Assembly (NCBI GenBank): GCA_024697655.1
Contig: JAILFI010000072.1
Coordinates: 1 to 13,728, forward strand
DNA: 13,728 bases
Direction of reading: 5' to 3'
Origin: Clostridiales bacterium
Lineage (GTDB): Bacteria > Bacillota_A > Clostridia > Peptostreptococcales > Anaerovoracaceae
Below are positions 8,106-13,728 of the stretch, piece by piece. The translations under genes were made by a program, and so were the position numbers. Positions within the stretch are counted from its first letter, which is position 1. The number at the start of each line of letters is the position of its first letter. The notes below the pieces were generated by a model. It made no database searches and was not told the DNA's origin. It saw nothing but the letters and a program-made list of their open reading frames with translations.

Positions 8106-8429
8106 CTAGAGTTTTTTCACGGTATCGACATACTTGTAGACGAGGCCGGCGTTCACGTAGTAATAGGTCGACTTGTCTTTTTTCATCGTTTCGATCAGAC
8201 CGGACCGCACCAGCGTCTTCATGTGCTGGGAAACGGTCGCCTGCGCGTAACCGAAGGCGGCAACAAGATCCTTGTTGCAGACCGGCGTTCTGGTCTTGTT
8301 CTGCGCCATGATGTAGCGGAGCAGGCGGATCCTGGCGGGATGAGCCAGGGCGTCGGAACAGGCGGCGAGGAATTCGATCTCCTCATCCATGATCTCGTCG
8401 CTTTTTGTATAGTCGTTGCGGATGCGCAT
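8106..8429 (-). CDS. ArsR-family winged-helix transcriptional regulator
   Basis: 107 aa. Seen: an N-terminal helix, CSDALAHPARIRLLRYI at 24-40 (the classic ArsR A-x-x-HP-x-R-xx-IL pattern), the helix-turn-helix with recognition helix QATVSQHMKTLVRSGLI at 63-79, and the wing KKDKSTYYYVN at 83-93. In ArsR metal sensors an ELCVC box lies at the start of the DNA-binding region; here that position reads TPVCNKDL with a single Cys51, so classical arsenite sensing is unlikely and the effector is unknown. The ATG has AAAGGA 6-7 nt upstream. It is first in an operon with the GIY-YIG gene, and no transporter or resistance gene stands beside it. Confidence 0.9.
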   Translation of the reverse strand: MRIRNDYTKSDEIMDEEIEFLAACSDALAHPARIRLLRYIMAQNKTRTPVCNKDLVAAFGYAQATVSQHMKTLVRSGLIETMKKDKSTYYYVNAGLVYKYVDTVKKL

Positions 8430-8681: not shown

Positions 8682-9338
8682 GTGAGTAAATCTAAGAGCG
8701 GAGTTTCCAGCATCCGGATCATCGTATACGGATATGTCATCATGATCCTTGTGCAGTTCCTGCTGCAGCTGTCCAGGCTGCTTGTCACGAAGAACGCGAT
8801 CGAGATCGGCGCGGTTGCCGTGACGGCGTTTGGTTGGCTGGTCCTGCTGGCGGGGTTCCACAGGATGTCCTCCAAAGGCGGGCAGTTCAAACGCGGCCGC
8901 GCGGCCTGTCTGTTCGGGCTTCTGATGGTGGCGGGCGAGGCATTCTATATTGTTAAGGACCTCAAGGCCGGCCTTGCGGAAGGGACTTTCATTGATTTCT
9001 ACGTCCTGTTTTTCTGGTATATGTCGATCTGCGCGCTCCTCTACACCTTTGCCAAGGCGCTGAAGGGCATGCAGCCCATCGTGGAGATGACCGATGCGAG
9101 ACTGGCAGCCAAATATCCGCGGACGGCGCTTCTGGTCGGCACGATCGTGATCCTGACACTGGTCTTCGTGCCGGTGATGCAGATGCTGCCCGAGGTCACA
9201 GGGTATGTCGGCACGCTCCTGCTCGGCGTGACCGGTGCGATCGCGCAGGGCTATATCTGCAAACTGCTGCTCGACGGGTATCACGCGGTCCGCGCGAATA
9301 CCGAGGAAGCCAGAGAGGCCGCCAGACAGGAACAGTAA
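8682..9338 (+). CDS. six-helix membrane protein of unknown function
   Basis: 218 aa; I do not recognise a family. Hydrophobic segments at about 11-34, 40-60, 73-92, 103-125, 147-169 and 173-198 suggest six membrane helices, with a short basic N-terminus and a charged Glu/Arg-rich C-terminal tail. No catalytic motif is visible. The GTG start follows GGGGGAG (8667-8673) with 8-nt spacing; an ATG 7 nt upstream runs into a stop after four codons and is rejected. It has its own promoter and is followed after 33 bp by a second protein of the same size and helix count, so the two may be distant paralogues or partners in the membrane. Confidence 0.8.
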   Translation: MSKSKSGVSSIRIIVYGYVIMILVQFLLQLSRLLVTKNAIEIGAVAVTAFGWLVLLAGFHRMSSKGGQFKRGRAACLFGLLMVAGEAFYIVKDLKAGLAEGTFIDFYVLFFWYMSICALLYTFAKALKGMQPIVEMTDARLAAKYPRTALLVGTIVILTLVFVPVMQMLPEVTGYVGTLLLGVTGAIAQGYICKLLLDGYHAVRANTEEAREAARQEQ

Positions 9339-9371: not shown

Positions 9372-10055
9372 ATGAAAGAAGATAAGCGTTACAAAGGACT
9401 GCAGAGTTTCGGGATCGGGGTGCTCCTTTTGGGAGCCACCGCGGTCTTGTCGTTGCTCCGGTCCAGTACGCTGATGATGTCGGTCTGCTGTGCGGCGGCA
9501 GCGGTCGGGGAATTCCTGATGGCATACGGCGCGCTGGCGGCGACCAAGTACAGTAAGAAATTCCGCACCGGCGGCATTCTCCTGCTTCTGGCGGCCTTTC
9601 TCCGGACGGTCGGACCGGCGATCCACATGCTGGACATCGCGGGCAGAACGGAAAAGATGGCGATGCTGGAAGGCGGCGCGGCCGCATTGGCGGCGCTTCT
9701 GGATGTGCTCGGCGTGATCGCGGTGATGCAGGGCTGCGTCAGAGTCGATAAAGAACGCAGGATCGGGAAAGGGCTGGCGGTGATCGCGATGATCGCCTAT
9801 CCGGTCGTTCTGCTGTGCGGGCAGGCGGTGCCGATCATTCTGGCGGCAAAGTTCGCCGGGGAACGGTCGCTGGTCATCAGCGGCATTACGATCGCGGCGC
9901 TCATGGTCTTCCTTGTGGCGTACCTTGCGGCAGCAGCCAGCCAGAATTCGTTCCGCAAGATCGAAATGGAATACGAACAGGAACCGGGCACCAGACGTCA
10001 TGTGCGGCGTCCGGAAGCTGCAGACGGAAGGCGGAGCCGGGGCAGCAAGCACTGA
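9372..10055 (+). CDS. second six-helix membrane protein of unknown function
   Basis: 227 aa; not recognised. Hydrophobic stretches at about 12-30, 34-56, 67-88, 100-121, 133-160 and 167-189 suggest six helices, followed by a polar, strongly basic C-terminal tail (about 195-227) rich in Arg. The overall plan mirrors the preceding gene: a Lys-rich N-terminus, six helices and a charged tail, although I see no clear residue-level identity. The ATG has only AAAAGAG 11 nt upstream, so initiation is probably weak or coupled to the preceding gene. It is presumably co-transcribed from the promoter at 8622. Its transcript likely ends at the hairpin and T run at 10083-10112. Confidence 0.75.
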   Translation: MKEDKRYKGLQSFGIGVLLLGATAVLSLLRSSTLMMSVCCAAAAVGEFLMAYGALAATKYSKKFRTGGILLLLAAFLRTVGPAIHMLDIAGRTEKMAMLEGGAAALAALLDVLGVIAVMQGCVRVDKERRIGKGLAVIAMIAYPVVLLCGQAVPIILAAKFAGERSLVISGITIAALMVFLVAYLAAAASQNSFRKIEMEYEQEPGTRRHVRRPEAADGRRSRGSKH

Positions 10056-10082: not shown

Positions 10083-10106
10083 ATGGTGCAAGATTATTTG
10101 CACCAT
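10083..10106. promoter_or_regulatory. palindrome upstream of the activator gene: likely autoregulatory site and/or terminator
   Basis: Perfect inverted repeat ATGGTGCAA (10083-10091), GATTAT, TTGCACCAT (10098-10106). It contains TGCAA-N6-TTGCA, the same half-site arrangement found three times downstream of the decarboxylase. The right arm contains the -35 of the activator promoter, so bound activator would block it. The arms are followed by a T run (10106-10111), so in RNA it can also act as an intrinsic terminator for the membrane-protein genes. Confidence 0.7.
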
Positions 10107-10126
10107 TTTTTATTACATGCTACAAT
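10098..10126 (+). promoter_or_regulatory. sigma-70-type promoter of the activator-decarboxylase operon
   Basis: -35 TTGCAC (10098-10103), 17-bp spacer, -10 TACAAT (10121-10126). The start would be near 10133, very close to the GGAGGA ribosome binding site at 10133-10138, so the leader is extremely short. The -35 is the right half of the palindrome. Confidence 0.7.
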
Positions 10127-10146
10127 GAGCGCGGAGGAAGACGGGG

Positions 10147-11601
10147 ATGGATTATAAAAAGATACTGACAAGCCTGATCCCGGAAATGGACGAAGGCATC
10201 CATATCGTGGACCGCGACGGCATCAATGTCATCTACAGCCAGAAGATGGCGGACATGGAAAAGATCCGGCGTGAAGACGTCATCGGCAAGAGTTTCCGGG
10301 AAGTGTTTTCCTATATCCCGGAAAACGAAAGCACCCTGCTCAAAGCGCTGAAGGGGCAGCCCACGGAATCGCAGCAGCAGACGTTCCTGAATGTCTACGG
10401 GAAGGAGATCACGACGATCAACACGACCGTGCCGATCTGGGACAACGGAGAAGTCATCGCCGCAATGGAGCTCGCCCGGGATATCACGGAGATCAAATCC
10501 ATGGCGGACCGGATCCTGGCGCTGCAGGAAGAGAAGATCGCACCGCCCAGAATGTCCCAGCCGAAGATCCGGCATTACACCTTCTACGATCTGATCGGCA
10601 AGGCGCCTGCGTTCGGGGATGCTGTGAACGTCGCGCGGCGCGCATCGCGCAGCGAGGCGCCGGTCTTCATCTACGGGGAGACCGGGACCGGTAAAGAACT
10701 GTTCGCACAGAGCATCCACTATGACGGCACGCGCAAGAACAAACCGTTCCTGGCGCAGAACTGCGCGGCGATCCCCGAGAGCCTTCTGGAAGGTATCCTC
10801 TTCGGTACGGCGAAGGGCGGCTTCACCGGCGCGGTGGACAGGGCAGGGCTGTTCGAACAGGCAAACGGCGGCACCCTGCTGCTGGACGAGATCAGCGCGA
10901 TGCCGTACGATCTGCAGAGCAAACTCCTGCGCGTCCTGCAGGAAAAATACATCCGCCGCGTAGGCGGAACGAAGGACATACCGGTCGATGTCCGGATCAT
11001 CGGGACTGTCAACGAACCGCCGGAGGACCTGATCGCGCGCAATGCGCTGCGCAGCGACCTGTTCTACCGCCTCGCGGTCATCAATATCGAACTCCCGCCG
11101 CTCAGGGAGCGCAAAGAGGACATCCGAAGCCTTGCGGAACGGTTCCTCGACAAGCATGGCCGCAAGGGCAGGTACGTCCGCTTCAGCCTCAGCCTTGACG
11201 CGCTTGAAAAGCTCCGCGGGTACGAGTACCCCGGCAATGTCCGTGAACTGGAAAACATCATGATCGCGGCGATCGCCATGGCGGAAAGCGGCGAGATCCT
11301 GCCGGAACACATCCGGTTCCCGTTCGAGGCGTTCGAACGCCGGCGTGCCGCGGTACAGGCGGACAGTGCTGCGGAGACGGAGAAAAAGCCGGGCGCAGCA
11401 GCTGACCGTCTTGCGGTGGCCAGCCCCGCGGCGCTGACCGAGGAAGGGCTGACGCTGCCGGAGCGGCTGCACCGGATCGAAGCGGCTCTGATCGACGAGG
11501 CGATGGAGAGAAACGGCGGGAACATTTCCCGCGCAGCGGCAGAGCTTGGCATCAAGCGTCAGGGGCTGCAGTACAAACTCAGGGAGCGTGACAGAAAATG
11601 A
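10147..11601 (+). CDS. PAS / AAA+ / Fis-type sigma-54-dependent activator, RocR-like
   Basis: 484 aa bacterial enhancer-binding protein. Seen: an N-terminal PAS sensor (about 8-115, starting MDEGIHIVDRDGINVIY), a linker, and the AAA+ domain (about 145-390) with Walker A GETGTGKE at 177-184, the sigma-54 contact loop at 224-229 reading GGFTGA instead of GAFTGA, Walker B GGTLLLDE at 241-248, the arginine-finger region LRSDLFYRL at 301-309 and YPGNVREL at 361-368. A Fis-type helix-turn-helix closes it (about 455-482, ISRAAAELGIKRQGLQYKL). An Ala/Glu-rich linker lies at about 398-435. The N-terminus and AAA+ details resemble RocR, the arginine-catabolism activator of Bacillus, which responds to ornithine or citrulline; that effector is inference here. 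ATG start has GGAGGA 8 nt upstream. The stop overlaps the decarboxylase start (ATGA). Confidence 0.93.
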   Translation: MDYKKILTSLIPEMDEGIHIVDRDGINVIYSQKMADMEKIRREDVIGKSFREVFSYIPENESTLLKALKGQPTESQQQTFLNVYGKEITTINTTVPIWDNGEVIAAMELARDITEIKSMADRILALQEEKIAPPRMSQPKIRHYTFYDLIGKAPAFGDAVNVARRASRSEAPVFIYGETGTGKELFAQSIHYDGTRKNKPFLAQNCAAIPESLLEGILFGTAKGGFTGAVDRAGLFEQANGGTLLLDEISAMPYDLQSKLLRVLQEKYIRRVGGTKDIPVDVRIIGTVNEPPEDLIARNALRSDLFYRLAVINIELPPLRERKEDIRSLAERFLDKHGRKGRYVRFSLSLDALEKLRGYEYPGNVRELENIMIAAIAMAESGEILPEHIRFPFEAFERRRAAVQADSAAETEKKPGAAADRLAVASPAALTEEGLTLPERLHRIEAALIDEAMERNGGNISRAAAELGIKRQGLQYKLRERDRK

Positions 11602-13211
11602 AAGACAGCAGGGGGCACCGGCAGCCAAGGACAGGCGGCCGCCCGGCGCTGGAGGAGTTTCTCCTGTCGAATATGCGGCGCGGGACGACGCGGCTGCACA
11701 TGCCGGGGCATAAAGGGCCGGAGATCTTTGTAAAGACGGGGCACGGCAGATTGCTCGACCACCTCGCTGAGATCGACATCACGGAGATCCCGGGGGCGGA
11801 CGATCTGTTCAATCCGGATCCGGAAGGACCGATCGGCGCCATGCAGGCGTGGTATGCCGCACTGTATCAGGTCAAGAAGAGCTATCTCATGGTCAACGGC
11901 GCGAGCGGCGGTATCCTCGCGGCGGTTCTTGCGGTGTGCGGCAGAGGGGACGCGCTCATCGTGGCGCGCAATTGCCATAAAGCGGTGACCAACGCGATGG
12001 CGCTCGGACAGATCCGGCCTGTGTACGTCTACCCGGATATCATAGAAGAGTACGGGATCTGCGGACCGGTCAGGGCGGAACAGATCGAGGAGGCCATCCG
12101 GGAGAACAGCGATGCCAGAGCGGTGCTCGTGACGAGCCCCAACTATTACGGTGTGCTGAGCGATATCCGTGCGATCGCGGAGGTCTGCCGGCGGCACAAT
12201 AAGGTGCTGATCGTCGACCAGGCGCACGGCGCGCATCTGGCGTTCTTCGATGAAGTCGACGGGACTTGCCTGTCGGCGGAGCGGGGCGGCGCCGATCTCA
12301 TCATCAACAGTATCCACAAGACGTTGGCCGGATTCGGACAGACAGCTGTCCTGAACGTGCAGGGCAAGACCGCGCACGGACCGTGCGAAGGCGGAGTGGA
12401 TCTGCTCGCGCTGGAAGACCGTCTGCAGCAGGTGCAGACTTCCAGCCCTTCGTACATCCTGCTGGCCAGCCTTGACGCGAACGGGGAGATCCTCGAGAAC
12501 AACCGCGGTGAGCTGATCTATGAGTGGGGCAAGGATGTCAGGCGTTTCTATGAGGAAGCGGCACAGCTCCGCGGAGTGCGCTGCATCCCGCCGGCACCGT
12601 GGATGGATCCCACAAAGATCAACCTGGGGGTCACCGAACCGCCGCTCAGCGGGGAAGAACTCGCGCGCAGACTGCGCGAAGACTACGGCATCCAGGTGGA
12701 ACTCCACACGCACAGGATGGTCATGTGCCTGACCGGCCTCGGCACCCGGTGGGCAGACCTGTCCAAACTGCTGCAAGCGCTCCGCCGCATTACGGAATCG
12801 CACACCGAAGAACAGGAACTCCAACGCCCCTACGGCCGCCGCAATACACAGGAGATGGACGGCAGCACCCCGGTCAACGGGACCGGCGCTGCGGTGTTTT
12901 TAAGGAAGGCTGCCTGCAGAGAAAGCGCGAAGGCGGCCGCGGCAGAAGCGGATGAAGAAGCGTGGATCCGCCCGCACAGTGTGCAGCCGGTCCCGGATGA
13001 AAAAGAATGGATCCCGCTGCAGGACGCTGCGGGCAGGACCGCGGCGGCGGCGGTAACACCGTATCCGCCGGGCGTACCGGTGGTGTGCCCCGGGGAGGTC
13101 TACACTGCAGAGGATATCGGACATATCGAAGGGCTGCTCGAAGAAGGCGGGATCGTGATGGGGATATCGGACAGCGGCAAGGTGCAGGTCGGAAAGAATA
13201 GTGCAAAATAA
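11598..13211 (+). CDS. PLP-dependent Orn/Lys/Arg decarboxylase family protein
   Basis: 537 aa fold-type I amino-acid decarboxylase. Seen: RLHMPGHKGPE at 32-42, GADDLFNP at 66-73, VNGASGG at 99-105 (cofactor phosphate loop), the PLP-binding VDQAHGAHL at 206-214 with Asp207, SIHKTLAGFGQ at 238-248 with Lys241 as the Schiff-base lysine, and the C-terminal-domain signature YPPGVPVVCPGE at 489-500. These are the residues of Orn/Lys/Arg decarboxylases; which amino acid is used is not readable, though a RocR-like partner favours arginine or ornithine. Between about 404 and 475 there is a low-complexity Ala/Glu/Arg-rich stretch that looks inserted between the two domains. It overlaps the activator gene by 4 nt and is co-transcribed with it. 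The stop codon lies inside a palindromic site. Confidence 0.92.
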   Translation: MKDSRGHRQPRTGGRPALEEFLLSNMRRGTTRLHMPGHKGPEIFVKTGHGRLLDHLAEIDITEIPGADDLFNPDPEGPIGAMQAWYAALYQVKKSYLMVNGASGGILAAVLAVCGRGDALIVARNCHKAVTNAMALGQIRPVYVYPDIIEEYGICGPVRAEQIEEAIRENSDARAVLVTSPNYYGVLSDIRAIAEVCRRHNKVLIVDQAHGAHLAFFDEVDGTCLSAERGGADLIINSIHKTLAGFGQTAVLNVQGKTAHGPCEGGVDLLALEDRLQQVQTSSPSYILLASLDANGEILENNRGELIYEWGKDVRRFYEEAAQLRGVRCIPPAPWMDPTKINLGVTEPPLSGEELARRLREDYGIQVELHTHRMVMCLTGLGTRWADLSKLLQALRRITESHTEEQELQRPYGRRNTQEMDGSTPVNGTGAAVFLRKAACRESAKAAAAEADEEAWIRPHSVQPVPDEKEWIPLQDAAGRTAAAAVTPYPPGVPVVCPGEVYTAEDIGHIEGLLEEGGIVMGISDSGKVQVGKNSAK

Positions 13212-13217
13212 TTTGCG
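13202..13217. promoter_or_regulatory. predicted activator-binding site 1 (overlaps decarboxylase stop)
   Basis: TGCAA (13202-13206), N6, TTGCG (13213-13217): same half-sites and spacing as the palindrome at 10083-10106. It is centred about 430 bp upstream of the expected sigma-54 start site. The last codons and TAA of the decarboxylase form its left part. Confidence 0.6.
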
Positions 13218-13221
13218 GTTT

Positions 13222-13233
13222 CTTGTATACAAG
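13222..13233. promoter_or_regulatory. 12-bp perfect palindrome, GntR-operator-like
   Basis: CTTGTATACAAG is perfectly self-complementary. Its core resembles the TTGTATACAA core known for GntR-family operators in Bacillus. No GntR-type regulator is encoded in the window, so the assignment is tentative. Confidence 0.35.
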
Positions 13234-13281
13234 GTCGGAAACGGCGAAAACGCAAGTCGTGGCAAGGCTCCGCTGCCATTG

Positions 13282-13297
13282 TGCAAAATTATTTGCG
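13282..13297. promoter_or_regulatory. predicted activator-binding site 2
   Basis: TGCAA (13282-13286), AATTAT, TTGCG (13293-13297). Nearly identical to site 1 over 16 bp and spaced 80 bp from it centre to centre. Confidence 0.65.
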
Positions 13298-13304
13298 CCC
13301 CCAA

Positions 13305-13320
13305 CGCAAAATATTTTGCG
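13305..13320. promoter_or_regulatory. predicted activator-binding site 3 (perfect palindrome)
   Basis: CGCAAAATATTTTGCG is a perfect 16-bp palindrome with the same N6 spacing between CGCAA and TTGCG. It lies 23 bp centre to centre from site 2, about two helical turns, a spacing that would place two activator dimers on the same face of the DNA. Confidence 0.7.
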
Positions 13321-13347
13321 ACTCAATACAAAAATTACCATTCCACC

Positions 13348-13387
13348 TGCTTATAGGTTGTTAATGCGATTGCTTATGGTTGTTGAT
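13348..13387. repeat. two tandem direct repeats between the sites and the sigma-54 promoter
   Basis: TGCTTATAGGTTGTTAAT (13348-13365) and TGCTTATGGTTGTTGAT (13371-13387) differ by one missing A and one A/G change; their starts are 23 bp apart. Function unknown; the position suggests a protein-binding role. Confidence 0.55.
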
Positions 13388-13441
13388 CAGCCAAAACAGA
13401 GAAAAACATAAAAAAGACATTTTTTGCACCGGGTATCAAGT

Positions 13442-13474
13442 GACCGCCGCAGATCTTGCAGCGGTCCTTCTTTT
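13442..13474 (+). terminator. probable rho-independent terminator downstream of the decarboxylase
   Basis: GACCGC-C-GCA (13442-13451) pairs with TGC-A-GCGGTC (13457-13466) with one mismatch and a 5-nt loop, then CTTCTTTT (13467-13474). It would end the activator-decarboxylase transcript about 260 nt after the stop codon and insulate the sigma-54 promoter. Confidence 0.6.
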
Positions 13475-13612
13475 GCACGGAAGACCATTGCAATCAAGGG
13501 CTTTCCAAGAGTCTGGCCGTGGAATAAAGCCTTCTGCATCATGGTTTTTGCACAGTATAAAATAGATGATTATGCGGGTTTTTTCGGGCGCTATGCAGGA
13601 TAACGCGTTTTT

Positions 13613-13628
13613 TGGCACGATATTTGCT
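13613..13628 (+). promoter_or_regulatory. sigma-54 (-24/-12) promoter directed out of the window
   Basis: TGGCAC (13613-13618), 5-bp spacer, TTGCT (13624-13628). Both blocks match the sigma-54 consensus TGGCAC-N5-TTGCW exactly, including the invariant GG and GC at the required spacing. The start site is expected near 13639. It is 1.9 kb after the end of the sigma-54 activator gene and about 300 bp downstream of its predicted sites. Confidence 0.88.
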
Positions 13629-13642
13629 ATACCATATACATG

Positions 13643-13725
13643 AGTTCGCTCGTCGAACTTTTTCCTGGTCATCAGGATAGTTAGGGGGCTTGGCGTCTGA
13701 CGGCAGTGTCCATAGACTACTGCCG
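13643..13725 (+). promoter_or_regulatory. structured 5' leader behind the sigma-54 promoter
   Basis: Three consecutive hairpins follow the predicted start: AGTTCG (13643-13648) with CGAACT (13654-13659) then TTTT; CCTG (13664-13667) with CAGG (13673-13676); and CGGCAGT (13701-13707) with ACTGCCG (13719-13725), the last extended by GTC/GAC. The first resembles a short terminator at the very 5' end. I do not recognise a known riboswitch class, and the element is cut by the window edge. Confidence 0.4.
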
Positions 13726-13728
13726 CCA

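Follow-up and report, generated by a model that had tools for sequence, protein, structure and literature searches.

Ornithine degradation in Clostridiales has been predicted by Nie et al. to be controlled by OrdR, a sigma-54 activator with a distinct upstream activating sequence (UAS) motif and a -24/-12 promoter, whose regulon comprises the genes ord-ortBA-oraSEF-orr-nhaC (PMC6615313). The C. difficile OrdR is CD0441, and transcription start mapping in that species located a SigL promoter ahead of ord (PMC7438776). SoxR of Bacillus thuringiensis HD73 is another sigma-54 activator of catabolic genes, and it inhibits its own expression (PMC4941409). Here, we analysed a stretch of 13,728 nt from a Clostridiales bacterium (contig JAILFI010000072.1; hereafter the window), which encodes a sigma-54 activator flanked by matching palindromes and followed by an outward-facing sigma-54 promoter. 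This locus very probably represents a self-limiting OrdR-type circuit for ornithine fermentation. The switch seems to be of this known kind, here driving an unusually rearranged set of genes.

The locus shares with the OrdR system the sigma-54 activator, the UAS palindromes, the -24/-12 promoter and the ornithine degradation genes. It differs in that oraS directly follows the promoter in a sister locus, in that the sister assembly yielded no ord-ortAB, and in that a decarboxylase-like gene is inserted between activator and promoter. Moreover, the UAS centres and the -24 element are 300-403 bp apart, whereas most of those described for OrdR are found at 100-250 bp (PMC6615313).

Palindromes, sigma-54 promoter and activator

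One scan with the activator yielded 99 confirmed relatives, of which 80 loci were kept, giving a set of 81 together with the window. The best relative, L001, stems from the uncultured Clostridiales bacterium RUG13615 and encodes an activator that is 87% identical to that of the window. Genome-wide motif and rpoN checks were made on the sister genome, G001.

The pattern YGCAAN6TTGCR occurs exactly at 10087-10102 (operator O1, TGCAAGATTATTTGCA), 13202-13217 (UAS1), 13282-13297 (UAS2) and 13305-13320 (UAS3), all without an assigned strand, and nowhere else in the window. These four matches compare with an expectation of 0.10, and at least four were reached in none of 200 shuffles. The three UAS sites precede an exact -24/-12 promoter on the forward strand, TGGCACGATATTTGCT, at 13613-13628, so that both the sites and the outward promoter appear just as a previous sequence-only reading of this DNA had described them. 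The promoter is the only match to TGGCACN5TTGCW with at most one mismatch in the window. Such a match is not rare in itself (at least one in 68 of 200 shuffles); its significance derives from its conservation, since it is found at the same place in L001 and a TGGCAYN5YTGC element follows the activator in 74 of the 81 loci. The element is missing from L003, L004, L027, L048, L063, L066 and L071.

UAS1 overlaps the end of the decarboxylase-like gene and is centred 403 bp from the -24 element; UAS2 and UAS3, which are 23 bp apart, are centred 323 and 300 bp from it. UAS1 and UAS2 have exact aligned sites in L001, and the counterpart of UAS3 at the aligned place (AGCAAAATATTTTGCG) deviates from the pattern at one base. 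Where the other loci have sites, these are centred 90-219 bp from the -24 element, except for L001 (402 and 322 bp) and L054 (332 bp). Neighbouring UAS are spaced by 22 or 23 bp in 27 cases and by 80 bp in two.

Across the loci, we distinguished the loose pattern, with any core, from an A/T-core form in which five or six of the six core bases are A or T. Counting the window, 72 of the 81 loci have the A/T-core form at a distance of 20-300 bp before the activator, and one to three palindromes of the loose pattern stand before the promoter in 63 of the 74 loci with a -24/-12 site. L063 and L071, whose ornithine genes run in the opposite direction, likewise have palindromes flanking the activator gene. 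Elsewhere in the 1.235 Mb of loci, with the UAS of the window and L001 set aside, only four A/T-core sites were detected, next to 12 sites with other cores. This conserved placement in the 80 related loci is in line with the earlier proposal that the palindromes are sites of the encoded activator, which is predicted to bind O1 and UAS1-3.

A genome lacking rpoN, or one in which the motif is just as common without a link to sigma-54 promoters, had been named beforehand as an observation that would speak against such a circuit. G001 contains rpoN (Sigma54_DBD, E 3.8e-54). The loose motif is barely above background in this genome, with 10 places compared to 7 for a reversed-pattern control, and among these 10 an A/T core occurs only in the three at the activator locus. 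Thus, only the A/T-core form is specific.

Directly after UAS1, at 13222-13233, the window contains a perfect palindrome, CTTGTATACAAG, which is kept in L001 and may be the site of another regulator. Its core, TTGTATACAA, occurs six times in the 81 sequences. Two blocks of the spacer, TGCTTAT[AT]GGTTGTT and GAAAAACA[CT]AAAAA[AG]GACA, were found only in the window and L001 among the 81.

The activator gene (10147-11601, forward strand) encodes a protein with PAS, AAA+ and Fis-type helix-turn-helix domains (Pfam: Sigma54_activat, PF00158, E 4.3e-60; HTH_8, E 3.8e-13). Its translation contains GETGTGKE, GGFTGA and GGTLLLDE, which we take to be the Walker A, FTGA loop and Walker B motifs. With the AAA+ domain, these motifs, the Fis-type domain and a -24/-12 target promoter, it belongs to the sigma-54 enhancer-binding proteins.

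The sequence-only reading had labelled the activator RocR-like, a label that is not upheld. RocR of Bacillus subtilis is likewise a sigma-54 activator of arginine and ornithine catabolism, and its domain layout resembles that of the encoded protein. It differs in its target genes, as the target in the sister locus is an aminomutase operon and not a set of roc genes. Its upstream sites are presumably A/T-rich as well, and the earlier reading had suggested a TGCAAAA/TTTTGCA-like form for them; RocR site sequences were looked for in papers and not found, and PMC9130780 yielded nothing on ornithine. The best NCBIfam equivalog is PrdR (NF041552), and the score of 355.4 bits stays far below the cut-off of 795; PrdR also differs in controlling proline reductase genes and in its UAS of the TGT-N10-12-ACA type (PMC6615313). 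Synteny and target fit an OrdR-like activator better than RocR. Downstream of the activator, ord is found within 1.2 kb and on the same strand in 67 of the 80 loci, and ord or oraS is present in 70. In five of the ten remaining loci, the sequence stops no more than 1 kb from the activator (L012, L013, L025, L039 and L048). Four further loci (L003, L004, L027 and L066) contain neither gene despite 10 kb of following sequence, and in L003 and L004 an Orr-like gene (39-41%) lies upstream of the activator.

Candidate operator O1 and the activator's own promoter

The earlier reading had placed one palindrome at the activator's own promoter. The site is indeed there; what had been overlooked is that it contains a -35 element. 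A sigma-70-type promoter at 10098-10126 (forward strand) consists of TTGCAC (10098-10103), a 17-bp spacer and TACAAT (10121-10126), with an extended -10 TG at 10118-10119, and O1 overlaps its -35. This arrangement is conserved: in 58 of 72 loci, a -10-like hexamer (at least four of six bases, with A2 and T6 fixed) starts 34 bp past the first base of the upstream palindrome, and 44 of these hexamers are extended -10 elements. The next most frequent offset, 29, was found 19 times, and the highest count that 200 shuffles gave for any offset was 10. The fixed position of the -10 indicates that the right half of the palindrome is the -35. A joint -35/-10 score, which placed 61 of 79 upstream sites at offset 34, was discarded in favour of the separate count because the score itself favours that offset.

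The activator and decarboxylase-like genes would be transcribed from this promoter. Since O1 contains the -35, a protein bound to it should exclude the sigma-70 polymerase, and the layout therefore predicts that the activator blocks its own promoter and limits its own synthesis.

The sign of this regulation follows from layout, which leaves some room for the opposite case, in which the activator at O1 would stimulate its own gene or be recruited there without repressing it. We consider this unlikely. The overlap of O1 with the -35 is fixed in position, and such an overlap is the usual geometry of occlusion. Furthermore, the window lacks a second match to the sigma-54 promoter pattern, even with one mismatch. 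The inhibition of its own expression by SoxR also argues against self-activation and provides a precedent for the self-repression predicted here, even though that system differs in its sarcosine genes, its 11-bp inverted repeat with a 7-bp gap and its two opposing transcription units (PMC4941409).

Another possibility is that O1 chiefly terminates the upstream gene, as an intrinsic terminator rather than an operator, with only the three downstream sites bound by the activator. In the window, O1 extends to ATGGTGCAA-N6-TTGCACCAT (10083-10111, forward strand), forming a 9-bp stem and six consecutive Ts, the first of which lies within the stem, and a hairpin with T-run is also present in L001. 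Terminator-like flanks, i.e. at least three flanking pairs plus TTTT, occur at 7 of the 72 upstream sites. However, at least three flanking pairs are found at only 12 of the 72 and no complementary flanking base at 37, whereas the core of 16 bp is conserved and the -10 follows at its fixed distance in 58. A role as terminator alone is therefore quite improbable, and both functions can coexist in the window and L001, where O1 may double as terminator of the gene at 9372-10055. This gene and its neighbour at 8682-9338 encode proteins of 227 and 218 amino acids, respectively, which showed no Pfam or NCBIfam match at E 0.001.

That the palindromes belong to a regulator other than the encoded activator is very improbable: their ownership is predicted from placement, and TTGTATACAA next to UAS1 is a sign that further factors may be at work in this region, but palindromes flank the activator in most of the 81 loci, including L063 and L071, and A/T-core sites are nearly absent from the rest of these loci.

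Proposed target operon, decarboxylase-like gene and leader

Behind the same promoter, L001 has a leader, oraS, oraE, a glmL-like gene and orr, and then mscL. OraS matches the D-ornithine 4,5-aminomutase alpha subunit (Pfam OAM_alpha, E 3.3e-53), and OraE (1354 bits, cut-off 800), the GlmL-related Or-4 protein (709, cut-off 600) and Orr (504, cut-off 480) all score above their NCBIfam cut-offs. As described for OrdR, the activator gene thus adjoins the sigma-54 promoter of ornithine degradation genes in the sister locus, and an ornithine operon as target, which had been suspected from the window itself, is confirmed there by gene content; the window presumably continues in the same way. We propose that the activator on UAS1-3 would loop to the sigma-54 polymerase at 13613-13628, that its PAS domain would sense a signal, possibly ornithine or a relative, and that the activated promoter would drive oraS-oraE-glmL-like-orr just right of the window.

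The gene between activator and promoter (11598-13211, forward strand) begins within the activator's stop codon (ATGA) and separates the activator from the promoter by about 2 kb. It encodes a pyridoxal phosphate (PLP) protein of the Orn/Lys/Arg decarboxylase family (OKR_DC_1, E 1.5e-52; OKR_DC_1_C, E 1.1e-10), with 2x3l as the closest solved chain (E 7e-33). Decarboxylase-like genes 43% identical to that of L001 were also observed upstream of the OrdR-like gene in two other loci (L052:8525-9925 and L080:6602-8005).

The OrdR target operon includes ord-ortAB, and these genes are absent from the cluster of L001. Among the 52 loci with oraS, ord is present in 51, and L001 is the sole exception. 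The G001 assembly gave no Ord match and no OrtB match above the general level of PLP enzymes; it gave no OrtA match either, a weak negative since no control rang in that search. As the completeness of G001 is not given, a loss of ord-ortAB in the lineage of the window and L001 is likely and not proven. Within 296 genomes of the family, OraE scored above its cut-off in 121. Reading the result tables by eye, we found no OrtB match better than 1e-50 in G001, G038 and G073 and only a partial one in G143. In G038 and G143, pieces of OrtB lie at a contig edge and in G073 the contig ends inside oraS, so that by this reading G001 is the only one of the 121 to lack OrtB without such an explanation. At the level of loci, ortB is missing from L001, L017 and L030. 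The latter two, in which about 1.2 kb separates ord from oraS and neither ortA nor ortB was found in the locus, were dismissed as OrtB-lacking because their oraE genes have the same coordinates as in G152 and G029, two genomes with OrtB at another place.

The 5' part of the leader occupies 13640-13728 (forward strand) and contains GGATAGTTAGGGGGCTTGG; its equivalent in L001, at 8153-8301, extends over about 150 nt to oraS. From the promoter on, the window and L001 are 77% identical, compared to 53% in the spacer at 13326-13605, yet this is no higher than in the genes (activator 83%, decarboxylase-like 77%). For the L001 segment 8141-8300, the predicted fold is more stable than those of shuffled sequences (z -2.5; stability equalled by 2 of 200), with near-equal alternative folds, one of which pairs UUUCCU with AGGAGA before the oraS start. 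A known riboswitch or RNA family was not identified, as the window was free of Rfam matches up to E 1 and the six found in L001 7690-8400 were weak, each falling short of the gathering score of its family. A leader pattern, ATAGTTAGGGGGCTTGG, allowing two mismatches, matched at 28 places in 25 of the 296 genomes, perfectly only in G001 and with one or two mismatches elsewhere, and its reversed-pattern control likewise matches in many genomes. A first covariance model (R1) was rejected because its structure paired the promoter itself. A second one (R2) found only G001 in the 296 genomes under stricter large-search filters; a search of 31 of the 81 sources, namely 30 loci plus the window, gave L001 and the window only, with an additional weak opposite-strand match in each. 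With two sequences for comparison, one of them cut off, the leader as a conserved RNA element may be regarded as a lead rather than a finding.

Scope of the proposed circuit and its implications

Several points weigh against the reading of the locus as a self-limiting OrdR-type circuit. Nine of the 81 loci lack an upstream A/T-core site, although some of these are cut by contig ends, and exact palindromes before the promoter are missing in 11 of the 74 loci that have a -24/-12 site. The loci are related, and L027 and L056 come from one species, so that counts across them are not independent. The assignment to OrdR is drawn from synteny and target instead of a sequence comparison with C. difficile CD0441, and the right flank of the window is modelled on L001. 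L042 has the same sites and promoter, yet argC, argJ and argB follow in place of ord. Finally, the precedent for self-repression comes by analogy from SoxR: no report of it for OrdR was found in the open literature searched or in the main text of PMC6615313, which contains no word beginning with autoregul or auto-regul.

The genes behind the OrdR-like gene in L042 (L042:11566-14260) comprise argC (392 bits, cut-off 234), argJ (481 bits, cut-off 351) and the start of a contig-cut argB. This is apparently an arginine biosynthesis operon under a sigma-54 activator.

For the lineage of the window and L001, it may further be speculated that the aminomutase operon was cut loose from ord-ortAB, and that 2,4-diaminopentanoate is made and not oxidised by the known route. 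The decarboxylase-like enzyme could then act on ornithine or 2,4-diaminopentanoate, and the new leader RNA could provide a translational on/off step, in which UUUCCU either pairs with AGGAGA, the ribosome-binding site of oraS, or is trapped in a CCUGG/UCAGG hairpin. As a whole, this combination is rather unlikely. If true, it would mean that the ornithine switch has been rebuilt in this lineage.

For the family, the 81 loci supply a sharp candidate operator for OrdR, and the conserved operator-in-promoter layout predicts that this class of activators curbs its own synthesis. They also mark one lineage in which the anaerobic ornithine pathway seems to be rewired.

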